Positions 4,898 through 12,092 of a stretch of DNA of 27,995 nt are shown here, in pieces. A program made the position numbers and the translations under genes. This DNA is from a virus: IMG/VR virus record IMGVR_UViG_3300030390_001913, positions 1 through 27,995 of that record; one strand, written 5' to 3'. Numbering within the stretch: the stretch's first letter is position 1; the number at the start of each line of letters is the position of its first letter. The notes beneath the pieces are model-generated. The model was not told the origin of the DNA, did no database searches, and saw only the letters and a list, made by a program, of their open reading frames with translations.

Positions 4898-5587
4898 TTA
4901 TTTAATAAGTCCTGCTAATTTTTTAAATCTAGTGATTTCTTCACTAAGAACTTCTTCTTTTATTTTTTCCTCATTGGTTGTTTTAACAACATGAGCTCTA
5001 GTATAATAAGTAATTGTATTTCCGATTTGATCCATCAGTTTATCATCACCCATTCTTTCTGCTTTTTCTTGAGCTTTTGTTAAAAGACCTAATACAGCTG
5101 ATACATCAGAAGATTCACCTGCTAATTCAGAATCAACTTCGATTTCAGATTTATCAGATACATCATCAATATCAATATCATCTTCAACATTAATATCAAC
5201 ATTATCTTCGACATCTACTTCTTCAGCTTCTCTCATAGTATCATCTTCTTCCATATCACCACGCATTTCTTCTTTAACGTCGTCTTCTTCGTAAGTACTA
5301 CGCATGCCTTCTTCAACATCATCTTCCATATAAGATCCACCTCGCATGCCTTCTTCAACATCATCCTTTTTCATTTCTTCAGAAACGTCTTTAGGTTCGT
5401 CTTTTTTAAGTTTAGCTAATTTTTCTTCATTGTCTTTAATGTCTTTTTCAAGGTTTTTTATATGGTCTCTATCATCACGGATAGCACCTTCCATACGTTT
5501 TTGTTCTTCCTTGTTTCCTTTTTTAGAATCTTCAGCCTCTGCTAAAAAGTTGGCTTTGATTATTTCTTTTAATTCCGATTTTTTCAT
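4898..5587 (-). CDS. Acidic repeat protein with probable capsid-targeting leader
   Basis: 229 aa, very acidic. The N-terminus MKKSELKEIIKANFLAEAED is an amphipathic helix ending in FLAE followed by A (E17), closely resembling the T4 capsid-targeting sequence with its gp21 cut site. Residues 25-65 look like a charged coiled coil. Residues 75-120 hold an imperfect tandem repeat of 13-14 residues (DDVEEGMR, DDVEEGMR, DDVKEEMR). A long Asp/Glu-rich stretch follows, then a helical C-terminus with EEVLSEEITRFKKLAGLIK. The C-terminal 'I-x-R-F-K-K-L-A-G-L' ending recurs in marine phage proteins, from memory. It is the first gene after a canonical late promoter. An internal head or scaffold-like protein is my best guess; no enzymatic motif is seen. 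Confidence 0.8.
   Translation of the reverse strand: MKKSELKEIIKANFLAEAEDSKKGNKEEQKRMEGAIRDDRDHIKNLEKDIKDNEEKLAKLKKDEPKDVSEEMKKDDVEEGMRGGSYMEDDVEEGMRSTYEEDDVKEEMRGDMEEDDTMREAEEVDVEDNVDINVEDDIDIDDVSDKSEIEVDSELAGESSDVSAVLGLLTKAQEKAERMGDDKLMDQIGNTITYYTRAHVVKTTNEEKIKEEVLSEEITRFKKLAGLIK
5262..5365 (-). repeat. Imperfect in-frame tandem repeat within the 229-aa acidic gene
   Basis: Two identical 23-base copies start at 5301 and 5343 (42 bases apart) and a diverged third copy starts at 5262 (39 bases away). All spacings are multiples of three. They encode DDVEEGM, DDVEEGM and DDVKEEM, each followed by a short variable spacer with a Met-Glu/Glu-Glu-Asp end. The repeat can change copy number without breaking the frame. 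Confidence 0.85.
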
Positions 5588-6238: not shown

Positions 6239-6766
6239 TTATACTGCTATATTTTTAATTATAGATACTATATCTTTTCCTTTTAATGCAGCTTTTAAAC
6301 TACTTATACCCCCTGCTACTACATTAGATTTTCTTAATGAGTTAAATGCTTCTGTTCCTGCTCTTGCTCCTAAACCTAATAATAATAAAATAAATAAACT
6401 ATCAGTAATTATTGTTTTTGCTTTTTGATCTTTAGTAAATAATCCAACTACACGTTCAATTGGTTTTTTAAAATCACCTTCTAACTTATGTGTAAAATTA
6501 TATATTTTATCAGCTGCTTCTTTACCTTTACCAAAATTATATTTATCAAATAATTTACTTACATATTTAGCTAATATATTAGTTAAGGTAGTTCCTGCTA
6601 AAATGTAAGAAAGAATTGATAAGGGATCTACTACTTCATTTAATTCATCTTTTTTATCATCTAATTTATCTTTAATTACAGATGCTAATTCATCGCCTAA
6701 TAAACCTAACTCATTTTCATTTAAATAGTTTTCTTTTAGATACTTATGTATGTTGAATTTATCCAT
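6239..6766 (-). CDS. Hydrophobic protein with capsid-targeting-like leader; possible membrane-active cargo
   Basis: 175 aa. The N-terminus MDKFNIHKYLKENYLNENE contains two overlapping (L/I)xE sites (YLKE at E12, YLNE at E17), and a further DELNE (E44) precedes the main body. Two hydrophobic segments follow: about 49-68 (LSILSYILAGTTLTNILAKY) and about 118-138 (TDSLFILLLLGLGARAG), the second a convincing transmembrane helix. The remainder is basic and helical. The TAATG overlap with the 408-aa gene shows coupling. A cleaved, packaged hydrophobic protein would suit a role in DNA ejection across the inner membrane, by analogy with ejection proteins of other phages. That is inference; a host membrane protein role cannot be excluded. 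Confidence 0.75.
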   Translation of the reverse strand: MDKFNIHKYLKENYLNENELGLLGDELASVIKDKLDDKKDELNEVVDPLSILSYILAGTTLTNILAKYVSKLFDKYNFGKGKEAADKIYNFTHKLEGDFKKPIERVVGLFTKDQKAKTIITDSLFILLLLGLGARAGTEAFNSLRKSNVVAGGISSLKAALKGKDIVSIIKNIAV

Positions 6767-8591: not shown

Positions 8592-9011
8592 TTATTTTTT
8601 ATATCCTTTAATAAGGGTAGTTAATTTCGATTCAGATTTACCTGATTTAGGTATTATAACTTCATTTTGTGATACTTTTATAAGTATATTATTGATGTTT
8701 TCTATTAAAAATTTTAAGTTTGAATAATTTAATCTATTATCACTATAATCTTCTTTTATTTTTTTTATAATTTGATTAGTTAATTTAGTTGATTTTATTC
8801 CTCCACTATAATCTATATTTAATTTAATACATTGTATATTAGCTACCAAAAAAGTTAAATCTATATCTTTTAAATCATTATTTTTATATGCTTTTTTAAT
8901 AGAAGGAATAATTTCATTTATATAAATTTTAGGTTGAGGTGTTAATTTAGGAGAAGGAGTACTTTTATCTCCTCCTTTATATCCTCCTGATTTTAAATTT
9001 ATTATACTCAT
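8592..9011 (-). CDS. Small lysine-rich protein of unknown function
   Basis: 139 aa. The first 30 residues are Gly/Ser/Pro/Lys-rich and probably disordered (SGGYKGGDKSTPSPKLTPQ). The rest is alternating helical sequence rich in Ile, Asn and Lys (IIPSIKKAYKNN, LTFLVANIQCIKLNIDYSGG, LKFLIENINNILIKV), possibly two related helical units, since 'DLTFLVANIQCI' and 'NLKFLIENINNI' are similar. The start overlaps the stop of the 754-aa gene (ATGA), so translation is coupled to it. One INE tripeptide (about residue 33) occurs but is not a convincing processing site. I do not recognise a family. Confidence 0.65.
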   Translation of the reverse strand: MSIINLKSGGYKGGDKSTPSPKLTPQPKIYINEIIPSIKKAYKNNDLKDIDLTFLVANIQCIKLNIDYSGGIKSTKLTNQIIKKIKEDYSDNRLNYSNLKFLIENINNILIKVSQNEVIIPKSGKSESKLTTLIKGYKK

Positions 9012-11272
9012 AGTCCTAATTTTTTAAGTTGACTAATAGTATCTGATGCTGAAGTATGTAATATTCCAATTCCACCTTGTGCTCTCCACTGTTCTATATT
9101 AGATTTTCTATCATCTATTAGTATGTGGTTAGGAGCAGCATAATTTTGTTTTTTAGATGCTTGTGCTAGTGTTAATTTAATTCCTGGCATATTATTTCTT
9201 ACCCATAATCTTTTACCTAATCTTGATGTAGCTGATCTTGAGGGAGAAGATAATAATTCTGTATCATAATTTTTAATATAATCCCAATACTGTTTTCCAT
9301 CCTTCATCCAAGGCATGCCAACCCAAAATCCTACTTTACCTTGACCATCAATTAATTTCCAAAATTCTTCTTTACCATATTTTTTTTCATAATCTGATGG
9401 TGCTATTCCATCTGAATATTTTTTAAATGATTCATCAAAATCTGTTAAAACACCATCCATGTCTGAAAATATTTTATATTTTTCTTCATTTTCAAATAGT
9501 GGTATGTTTAGCTTTGGAGCTCTATTTCTCCATAAATTTTTTATATCTCTTTGATCATTTGTATCTAAATTTAATTCATATTTTAAATAATTATCAATTA
9601 TATTTTTTAAAGGTTTTCTTGATTTTTTTGCTTTTAAATATAAACCCTGCAAATTAGCATCAATTTCTTTTTCTAATTTATAATAATCAGGAGTACCTAA
9701 TTTTTTTCTCCAAATTTTCCACCAAGGTTTTTTACCAGTTTTTAATTCATCTCTTTCAGCAGAGTCAGATTCCATTTCTTTACCTGTCTTGACATTAATG
9801 CCACTTTGCATTAAATGTTCAATTTCATGTCTAATTACATTCCTAATATCCATTGAAATTTGTTCCCACATTCTAGGTAATTCATCTATAGGAATTCTAT
9901 AATTTAATTCTACTTCTGGGATTGGTTTTTTTATAGGACGAGCTACCCCTGATGAATTAAAATCATCTACAAAATTAGCTTTTGCTATATATAAAAATTT
10001 TAAATAAGGGTATTCAAATTCTTCTCCAGGACCTACTTTTAAACTAAAATAACCTTTATTTTGACTATCTTCAAAATCACCTTTCCAAGCATTTAAAGTA
10101 TAACCTGCTAATTTAGTTACTAATGAATCATACTTACCTTCATTTAATACTTCCTTAGCTACTTCTTTAATAAATTTATTTATTCCAAAATGGTCTTTAT
10201 TTTCATTTAAAAATTCATTATCATGTCCACATTTATGGCATATAAATAAATCATTACCTCCATCTTTTATTTTCCAACTCCAATTACATTTATCACATTC
10301 AATTTTATCATCTACAATAGCTTCTGTTATACTAGAACTAACATCACCATCTATAGAATCTGTCCAATTTCTAAACATCATATTGCCTTCTGAATACGCT
10401 TCTCTTTCAATAGCATCTAAATCTTCATCTGCTGTTGTATCTGTCGTTTGAAGATTTCCAATTCTATCTTCTAAATTTTGGGTATGGTGAACCATTTCAT
10501 GAGCAAATGATCTGACAATATCTTTAGGATGTCTTCCTTCAGTATATAAAACTATAGTTTTAGTATTAGGATCATAATATGCTGTTCTACCAAAGAAATT
10601 TTTAGCATTATTATCATCTCCATCTATAAATTCTAAATCTGGTAATGGTAAAATATTTCTATTATTTTCTATCATATAATCTACTAAATCAACTATCATT
10701 TGCTTATAATCTATATACTCAGAATAAGTTGCATTTTCATTTATACTCTCATTAGTAGGGGGTCGTAGTATAGAATATATTTCTGATTTTTCTTCTACTT
10801 CAGATGGTAAAAATTCAATAAATTCTTTTTCTGATTTGTTAAGTGCCTTTCTTGCATTAGTTCCACTCATATTAGGATCATAAGTAGGAATAACTTTAAC
10901 TACAATATTTGGATATTTTTTTTCTATATCTCCTGTTCTTGCTGATACATCATCTAAATCATCCTGTCTTCCTTCTCTGTAACCAATAACAAAATAAATT
11001 ATATCTTGAGGATTATTTTTAGCTAAACGTAAAATATCTCCAATTGGAGATTTTACAGGTTCTATTTTAACTTTATTTGCTAAATATCTTTTGTAAATAT
11101 CCCAAACTAAAACAGATTCAGTTTGTTCAATACCATCACGTACTTTTCCTCCTACAAATATTGTAAATTCATCTATTTCAGGATAATCCTGTAATGCACG
11201 TTTTACAATTTCAAAATGACCTGCTGTTGGTGGTTTAAACCCACCCCCGTATGCTGCTAAAATTTTACCCAT
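9008..11272 (-). CDS. Five-domain multi-enzyme polyprotein: nucleotidyltransferase, two HExxH domains, zinc ribbon, HAD phosphatase
   Basis: 754 aa. Residues 1-170 are a cytidylyltransferase-type nucleotidyltransferase: GGGFKPPTAGH carries the HIGH-like motif (T16-A-G-H19) and SGTNARKA (136-143) the second ATP-binding motif. Residues 180-317 hold FAHEMVHH (H258, E259, H262) with EREAY (about 289-293) as possible third zinc ligand. Residues 318-357 hold a zinc ribbon (C326, C329, C345, C348). Residues 379-594 hold IRHEIEHLMQ (H482, E483, H486) with E534/E536 as candidate third ligand. Residues 595-754 are HAD-like: SDMDGVLTDFD (D604, D606), SSPSRS and ILIDDRKSN (D720, D721), similar to 5'(3')-deoxyribonucleotidases. 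Each joint carries an (L/I)xE: E179, E317, E357, E378, E594. The start overlaps the kinase gene by 8 bases. Substrates are unknown; the five domains are well supported, the cleavage is inference. Confidence 0.85.
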   Translation of the reverse strand: MGKILAAYGGGFKPPTAGHFEIVKRALQDYPEIDEFTIFVGGKVRDGIEQTESVLVWDIYKRYLANKVKIEPVKSPIGDILRLAKNNPQDIIYFVIGYREGRQDDLDDVSARTGDIEKKYPNIVVKVIPTYDPNMSGTNARKALNKSEKEFIEFLPSEVEEKSEIYSILRPPTNESINENATYSEYIDYKQMIVDLVDYMIENNRNILPLPDLEFIDGDDNNAKNFFGRTAYYDPNTKTIVLYTEGRHPKDIVRSFAHEMVHHTQNLEDRIGNLQTTDTTADEDLDAIEREAYSEGNMMFRNWTDSIDGDVSSSITEAIVDDKIECDKCNWSWKIKDGGNDLFICHKCGHDNEFLNENKDHFGINKFIKEVAKEVLNEGKYDSLVTKLAGYTLNAWKGDFEDSQNKGYFSLKVGPGEEFEYPYLKFLYIAKANFVDDFNSSGVARPIKKPIPEVELNYRIPIDELPRMWEQISMDIRNVIRHEIEHLMQSGINVKTGKEMESDSAERDELKTGKKPWWKIWRKKLGTPDYYKLEKEIDANLQGLYLKAKKSRKPLKNIIDNYLKYELNLDTNDQRDIKNLWRNRAPKLNIPLFENEEKYKIFSDMDGVLTDFDESFKKYSDGIAPSDYEKKYGKEEFWKLIDGQGKVGFWVGMPWMKDGKQYWDYIKNYDTELLSSPSRSATSRLGKRLWVRNNMPGIKLTLAQASKKQNYAAPNHILIDDRKSNIEQWRAQGGIGILHTSASDTISQLKKLGL

Positions 11273-12092
11273 TTATAAATGATTTTAATTTTGCTTGTGC
11301 TTCTTCAGCTGATACTGAGTTGTCAATAACATCTTTTACTCCACCATCTGATAAAAATGATTTTATTTGAGTATTTATAGCTGCTTTTCTTTTATCTGAT
11401 CTTGCTTGTGCTTTAGCATCTTTAGGTTTTGTACCTTGCGGTTTGTATGGAGTTAAGTATTTATTTACTATATCTTCTAAATTATCTAATTTTTCATCTT
11501 TTAAAGTGTTAGCAACTGATACAAAATTATTACCAAAAGAACTTTTATATTCATTATAATTTTTAGTTACATCATTCCAAGTAGTCATAACAATTGCTGG
11601 GGCTAAACTTCTATCTTCACCTCCTGATTTATCAAATCTATCTTGGTTTTGTTTTAATGAACGTTCTAAATCTGTGTAAACATAAAGCATAAATACATCA
11701 TATCCTGCGTTTTCTAATTCATCTTTTAATTTAAGTGTAGCTCGGCTTGAAGCTCCTGTACCATCTAATATAAATGATTCTCTACTAGCTATTGCTTTAG
11801 GTAAATCTTCATCTTTTAATTTTGAAGCTGCTTGTCTCATTAATTTAGCTGATGTACTTCTTTCTTCTGGGGTAGCATTTTTTAAATCTAAACTAACACC
11901 TGCTTTTTTAAGTAAAGGAACAAAATCTAAATCTAAATTATAAGTAGTTAAACCTGATAAATCTAGACCACGTAAAATATAACCTTTACCTGCTCCAGGA
12001 GCACCAGCTAATATAATAGCTTTAGGATTATTAGAAATTTCTTTCAGTAGTTTACCTTCTGCTATATATTTTTTATAGTCAAAATTATCCAT
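11265..12092 (-). CDS. P-loop kinase (zeta-toxin/AAA-like) with capsid-targeting-like leader
   Basis: 275 aa. The leader MDNFDYKKYIAEGKLLKE ends in YIAE followed by G (E12), strikingly like the T4 internal-protein leader that ends in FIAE before A; LLKE (E18) is a second site. Walker A is GAPGAGKG (30-37, K36). Later segments fit a small kinase: LDLDFVPLL, FILDGTGASSRATLKLKDEL (Walker B-like region about residue 108-115), and DVFMLYVYTDLERSLKQNQDR (base-binding or lid-like). The fold resembles zeta toxins and polynucleotide or small-molecule kinases; the substrate cannot be read from sequence. The C-terminus (215-275) is basic and helical (KPKDAKAQARSDKRKAA). It is followed by the 754-aa gene with an 8-base overlap and preceded by a variant late promoter, which fits a late, packaged enzyme. 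Confidence 0.8.
   Translation of the reverse strand: MDNFDYKKYIAEGKLLKEISNNPKAIILAGAPGAGKGYILRGLDLSGLTTYNLDLDFVPLLKKAGVSLDLKNATPEERSTSAKLMRQAASKLKDEDLPKAIASRESFILDGTGASSRATLKLKDELENAGYDVFMLYVYTDLERSLKQNQDRFDKSGGEDRSLAPAIVMTTWNDVTKNYNEYKSSFGNNFVSVANTLKDEKLDNLEDIVNKYLTPYKPQGTKPKDAKAQARSDKRKAAINTQIKSFLSDGGVKDVIDNSVSAEEAQAKLKSFING

Follow-up and report, generated by a model that had tools for sequence, protein, structure and literature searches.

Does the 754-aa reading frame on the minus strand of the window (the whole analysed stretch of 27,995 nucleotides, from the viral record IMGVR_UViG_3300030390_001913) code for a single multi-domain enzyme, or for a precursor to be cut into several proteins? 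Tailed phages deliver proteins along with their DNA, and the internal proteins known from T4-type phages are single units. The frame proposed in a first-pass annotation is confirmed, and all the domains named there are recognizable from motifs: a nucleotidyltransferase (GGGFKPPTAGH and SGTNARK), two HExxH proteins (HEMVHH in MP1, HEIEH in MP2), a zinc ribbon (CDKCNWSW...CHKCGH) and a HAD domain (DMDGVLTDFD and ILIDDRK). The order of modules is: adenylyltransferase-fold enzyme, HExxH protein 1, zinc ribbon, a 21-aa leader-like peptide, HExxH protein 2, deoxyribonucleotidase-type HAD. The frame overlaps the genes on both sides by a few base pairs, as in a co-translated operon. All features are located in Table 1.

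Table 1. Location of the polyprotein gene, its predicted modules and cleavage sites, and neighbouring genes in the window; a slash marks a predicted cleavage position.
Feature	Coordinates	Strand	Support
754-aa ORF, predicted cargo polyprotein	9008..11272	-	about 80 relatives
Residues 1-179, adenylyltransferase-fold (NadD/CoaD-like) module, ends INE179	10736..11272	-	Foldseek, Pfam, immuto homologue
Residues 180-317, MP1 (HExxH putative metallopeptidase module 1), ends ITE317	10322..10735	-	HEMVHH, DUF6782
Residues 318-357, mobile zinc-ribbon module (ZnR), ends LNE357	10202..10321	-	CxxC...CxxC
Residues 358-378, embedded capsid-targeting-like leader NKDHFGINKFIKEVAKEVLNE	10139..10201	-	motif placement in other ORFs, low pLDDT
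Residues 379-594, MP2 (HExxH putative metallopeptidase module 2), ends LFE594	9491..10138	-	43-sequence alignment
Residues 595-754, HAD 5'(3')-deoxyribonucleotidase-like module	9011..9490	-	phrog_2643, 3bwv, architectures
INE179, predicted prohead-protease site	10736..10744	-	pLDDT <50 at 174-179; NMNAT to MP1 junctions with [LIV]xE 26/26
ITE317, predicted site	10322..10330	-	10-residue block pLDDT 54; MP1 to ZnR junctions 7/7
LNE357, predicted site	10202..10210	-	pLDDT <50 at 354-356
LNE378, predicted site	10139..10147	-	40/40 contexts with Glu at P1 and Gly at P1'; Leu at P3 in 32/40
LFE594, predicted site	9491..9499	-	block pLDDT 67; MP2 to HAD junctions 10/10
Zeta-toxin-fold kinase, upstream overlapping gene, leader MDNFDYKKYIAE/GKLLKE/	11265..12092	-	Pfam Zeta_toxin E 2.9e-17
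Leader protein MDNFNTTKWFKSQYLKE/; C-terminal ~44 aa are a polyprotein module in L012, L047	6766..7992	-	
Leader protein MDKFNIHKYLKE/NYLNE/	6239..6766	-	
Separate gene; its homologue is a fused module in the relatives L024, L054, L014	5667..6236	-	
Leader protein MKKSELKEIIKANFLAE/, scaffold-like tail RFKKLAGLIK	4898..5587	-	

Family models match the protein weakly: in Pfam CTP_transf_like, DUF6782 (a metallopeptidase, at MP1) and NT5C are found, all below cut-off, and NCBIfam gives weak matches only. When the AlphaFold model is compared with the PDB by Foldseek, the first module retrieves NadD/CoaD adenylyltransferases (E 3.6e-6), and its homologue in phage immuto is annotated as NMN adenylyltransferase: by fold and motif, with family scores all below cut-off, residues 1-179 are a putative NMN/phosphopantetheine adenylyltransferase. 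Residues 595-754, which combine the HAD motifs with a match to the PHROGs deoxyribonucleotidase profile phrog_2643 (E 2e-23) and to the deoxyribonucleotidase-like PDB entry 3bwv (Foldseek, E 1.4e-4), are a predicted 5'(3')-deoxyribonucleotidase (NT5C). In an alignment of 43 MP2 sequences, RHExxH (R103, H104, E105, H108) and a distal E158 are invariant; the search for its fold in the PDB gave nothing below E 0.2, and no fold family was assigned. PADLOC found no defence-system match. As to the two small products proposed earlier, residues 318-357 are a mobile zinc ribbon, while residues 358-378 are leader-like and no enzyme.

The (L/I)xE tripeptide occurs nine times in the protein, against 9.4 expected from shuffled sequences: the number of sites, taken as evidence in the first-pass annotation, is at chance level and was rejected. 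The five sites listed there (INE179, ITE317, LNE357, LNE378, LFE594) do sit at the residues given, but are five of nine, IDE35, IKE370, IPE453 and IDE464 having been omitted. The position of the sites, unlike their number, is not due to chance. In an AlphaFold model built from 100 sequences (mean pLDDT 85.5, pTM 0.49, i.e. good predicted domains whose mutual orientation is not fixed), six of the nine fall in low-confidence ten-residue blocks, which make up 12 of the 76 blocks (hypergeometric p = 0.0003). All five listed sites lie within these low-confidence joints, as a structure prediction, the check originally suggested, was expected to show for sites in linkers. The equal weight implied for all tripeptides does not hold: IDE35, IPE453 and IDE464 are inside well-folded domains and are probably not cut.

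A scan of viral contigs found 108 encoding stretches, and 80 loci were retained. The 56 non-redundant relatives show 38 architectures: between nucleotidyltransferase and HAD, modules go missing, occur in duplicate or change places, with variation in number, order and copy. The nucleotidyltransferase heads the chain except in two loci (L002:17128-19851 and L035:3757-5583), where an extra pol-beta-type nucleotidyltransferase domain precedes the adenylyltransferase; the HAD module is last in every fused case. MP1 is found in 55 of the 56, a figure to be read with the retrieval, whose search patterns, derived from the window protein, are biased towards MP1. The zinc ribbon occurs 17 times in the 56 polyproteins, at differing positions. 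Further cargo modules in relatives are Fe/Mn superoxide dismutase, plastocyanin-like and KptA-like; in a 1253-aa polyprotein (L024:3071-6832), LxE/VxE sites enclose a plastocyanin-like domain and a full Fe/Mn superoxide dismutase. At least two distinct enzyme domains in one polypeptide and a variable architecture are features that the window polyprotein shares with the polyvalent proteins.

The claim that the sites mark domain joints is borne out across these relatives by two kinds of statistics. [LIV]xE is present at 46 of 47 junction types, against 6.7 expected, and strict [LI]xE at 33, against 4.6 expected, in a test whose module borders and seeds had in part been placed by eye at LxE sites; some junctions have VxE or MxE, which the strict T4 motif does not cover. 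A second test, based on BLAST breakpoints, is independent of the hand-drawn borders. Performed on all BLAST matches it was noisy, at about 2-fold, and it was narrowed by identity cut-offs of 55% and 65%: at 65% or above, [LI]xE within three residues is enriched 3.6-fold at left and 5.0-fold at right breakpoints, and VxE is enriched likewise. Control motifs range from about 0.2 to 2, with [LI]xD down to 0.4–0.5. Relatives are not independent samples: all p-values are too small, and it is the effect sizes that count.

Relatives in which the domains are separate genes had been proposed as a further check, and the same site is found there, in a short leader directly preceding the domain. [LI]xE is located just upstream of the nucleotidyltransferase in 49 of 49 distinct leader contexts, and before the domain in 35 of 35 distinct contexts of stand-alone HAD genes; a separate MP2 gene reads MQLTLSDILFE/GKYDSL. 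For internal contexts, where the background is 0.205, [LI]xE precedes MP2 in 34 of 39, MP1 in 68 of 91 (80 of 91 for [LIV]xE) and HAD in 23 of 35. The kinase genes beside the polyprotein feature [LI]xE in 73 of 73 distinct leaders, of at least two dissimilar types (MISLVQLLKE/ and MDNFDYKKYIAEGKLLKE/); that unrelated leaders share the tripeptide argues for conservation of the site, not for common leader ancestry. The window protein, too, carries (L/I)xE at predicted mature borders, as do gp21-processed internal head proteins.

An N-terminal capsid-targeting leader, found in 49 contexts of relatives, is absent from the window copy, which begins directly at the nucleotidyltransferase. The embedded segment 358-378 (NKDHFGINKFIKEVAKEVLNE), with low pLDDT at residues 367-376, has the appearance of a one-time N-terminal leader that the chain has taken in, because the motif it matches is N-terminal elsewhere (of the first 25 further ORFs listed from these loci, 20 have it at residues 3-5) and internal in 7 of 11 leaderless contexts; the remaining four are short forms.

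Other genes of the window carry comparable leaders (Table 1). The zeta-toxin-fold kinase directly upstream, whose leader is capsid-targeting-like, is encoded in many relatives too and may itself be packaged cargo. The tail of the acidic product of 4898-5587 nearly matches RFKKLAGII, from the predicted scaffold of the relative G005. The product of 66-1373 features several N-terminal LxE sites (VLNE/, ILSE/, LTE/), while its last ~80 residues hit phrog_7595 and are similar to HTVC008M gp131.

A candidate protease is encoded by relatives: a gp21-family gene (Peptidase_S77, PF03420) is present in 14 of the 14 longer ones, immuto included (gp70), and the Gp23 capsid protein in 13 of 14; in the window's own 48.9-kb record, which is a fragment, neither gene was found. 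In G005 the protease itself (MSQLLIE/), the predicted scaffold (MNRNFLQE/) and the predicted capsid protein (MSQLNSLLE/) carry short leaders of a similar kind. T4 gp21 cleaves after L/I-x-E; ten residues at the N terminus of IPIII are enough for packaging, and a change of position 10 to Asp blocks processing while targeting stays intact (PMC9026906). T4 IPII and IPIII start with MKTYQEFIAE/A; a leader of this type, MKKFSAFLNE/A, starts the cytidyltransferase of cyanophage S-SM1 (SSM1_190, T4-GC190); both this enzyme and gp21 were detected in virions after purification (PMC3037559). The window nucleotidyltransferase is a distant, weak match to the S-SM1 cytidyltransferase: they share the profile phrog_3041, with E 0.013 for the window and 2e-11 for the relative L074. 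Two hypothetical cyanophage proteins, in S-SM1 (L214, 12845-13333) and P-RSM1 (L213, 6362-7009), start with a T4-like leader, MLSFKELQE/, and internal head proteins may be numerous among the unannotated proteins of cyanophages.

The likely answer to the opening question is that the gene, from a marine T4-like phage, encodes a precursor of several virion internal proteins, which would be cut by gp21 in the prohead and injected. Modules, junction sites, shuffling and leaders, along with the protease genes of the relatives, are read from the sequences themselves; packaging, cleavage and injection of the pieces we infer. Entry of the precursor into the prohead core would, for the window copy, probably depend on the embedded segment 358-378, since this copy is without the N-terminal leader of most relatives. 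A gp21-type prohead protease would cut after (L/I/V)xE at residues 179, 317, 357, 378 and 594, freeing an adenylyltransferase-like enzyme, two putative metallopeptidases, the zinc ribbon and a nucleotidase, which would leave the head along with the DNA when the phage infects. The same sites would also be the cassette borders where modules exchange, and where separate leader-tagged genes are fused or split. The polyprotein idea of the first-pass annotation is retained on the strength of linker sites and of leaders in relatives, without its site count, its equal weights and its identities for the small pieces; the early-takeover role it suggested is plausible, as the pieces resemble packaged internal proteins.

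Joining genes that bear leaders would be enough to leave LxE at every joint, and described polyvalent proteins are multi-domain and thought to be injected (PMC5512222): the protein might then be packaged and injected whole, its (L/I)xE tripeptides being uncut relics of leaders. This is rather unlikely, given that the sites are present also at junctions with no recognizable leader, and that [LI]xE is under-represented in module cores (0.0056 per residue, where the window protein's composition predicts about 0.0125). Moreover, before MP2, P1 is Glu and P1' Gly in 40 of 40 contexts and P3 mostly Leu (32 of 40), while P2 is free and the remaining linker drifts, the entropy of the columns upstream of the site being near 3 bits; such a pattern is, on the aligned residues, the footprint of an L-x-E protease.

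That protease need not be gp21: an HExxH module could cut the chain in cis or in trans, as proposed for the MPTase domains of polyvalent proteins, with P1 DdrB as a precedent (PMC5512222), and MP1 is nearly ubiquitous in the relatives found. Yet this prevalence comes from the MP1-biased retrieval, the motif is that of gp21, and the same sites are present in leaders of peptidase-free proteins, such as the kinase and the separate HAD, which makes self-cutting quite improbable. An ordinary cytosolic multi-domain enzyme, with coincidental motif positions, would agree with the nine sites expected by chance at such composition; contradicted by junction, breakpoint and leader statistics, it is very hard to maintain.

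Extending the precursor reading, we lean towards a combinatorial cargo, in which T4-like phages would chain unrelated enzymes with the ends fixed and the middle shuffled, and the motif of the capsid-maturation protease would mark cut sites and cassette borders alike. If so, any folded domain between two (L/I/V)xE sites would be a separately delivered internal protein, and chained cassettes would explain the quick change of injected cargo in such phages. If the capsid protease does cut a multi-enzyme precursor, this would amount to a polyprotein strategy in a DNA phage; no description of an enzyme polyprotein cut by a prohead protease was found in the open-access literature, which does not prove absence. 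The (L/I/V)xE leader may be used as a searchable tag for unannotated internal proteins of marine phages, cyanophage hypothetical proteins included.

Among known systems, the gp21-processed T4 proteins IPI, IPII, IPIII and Alt share the short N-terminal leader ending in (L/I)xE and the gp21-family protease (both, here, in relatives), as well as fast-changing cargo. They are, however, single units that lose a terminal propeptide, whereas in the window polyprotein enzymes are chained and every joint is predicted to be cut. With polyvalent proteins (PMC5512222) the likeness is in the many shuffled enzyme domains, metallopeptidases and nucleotidyltransferases included. These are expected to enter the host, while entry of the window pieces would follow from the leaders; their processing is ascribed to built-in peptidase domains, while the border motif found here is that of the capsid-maturation protease. 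S-SM1 T4-GC190 is likewise a nucleotidyltransferase, but the T4-like leader and the presence in virions are features of S-SM1, and the cyanophage protein, unlike the window one, is not fused to peptidase or HAD modules. In HTVC008M, zeta-like kinase, cytidyltransferase and HAD are separate genes, in the same order as in the window. The cultured relative, Flavobacterium phage immuto (NC_055915), features an NMNAT-MP1-MP2 chain (gp88), which differs by an additional N-terminal pol-beta-type nucleotidyltransferase domain, and a HAD gene (gp87) which is separate and has its own leader, MKKVMGNLADLLLE/. Its predicted cuts follow E286, E702 and possibly E496 in gp88, and E14 in gp87. The window polyprotein has features of T4 internal proteins and of polyvalent proteins, and fits neither group exactly.
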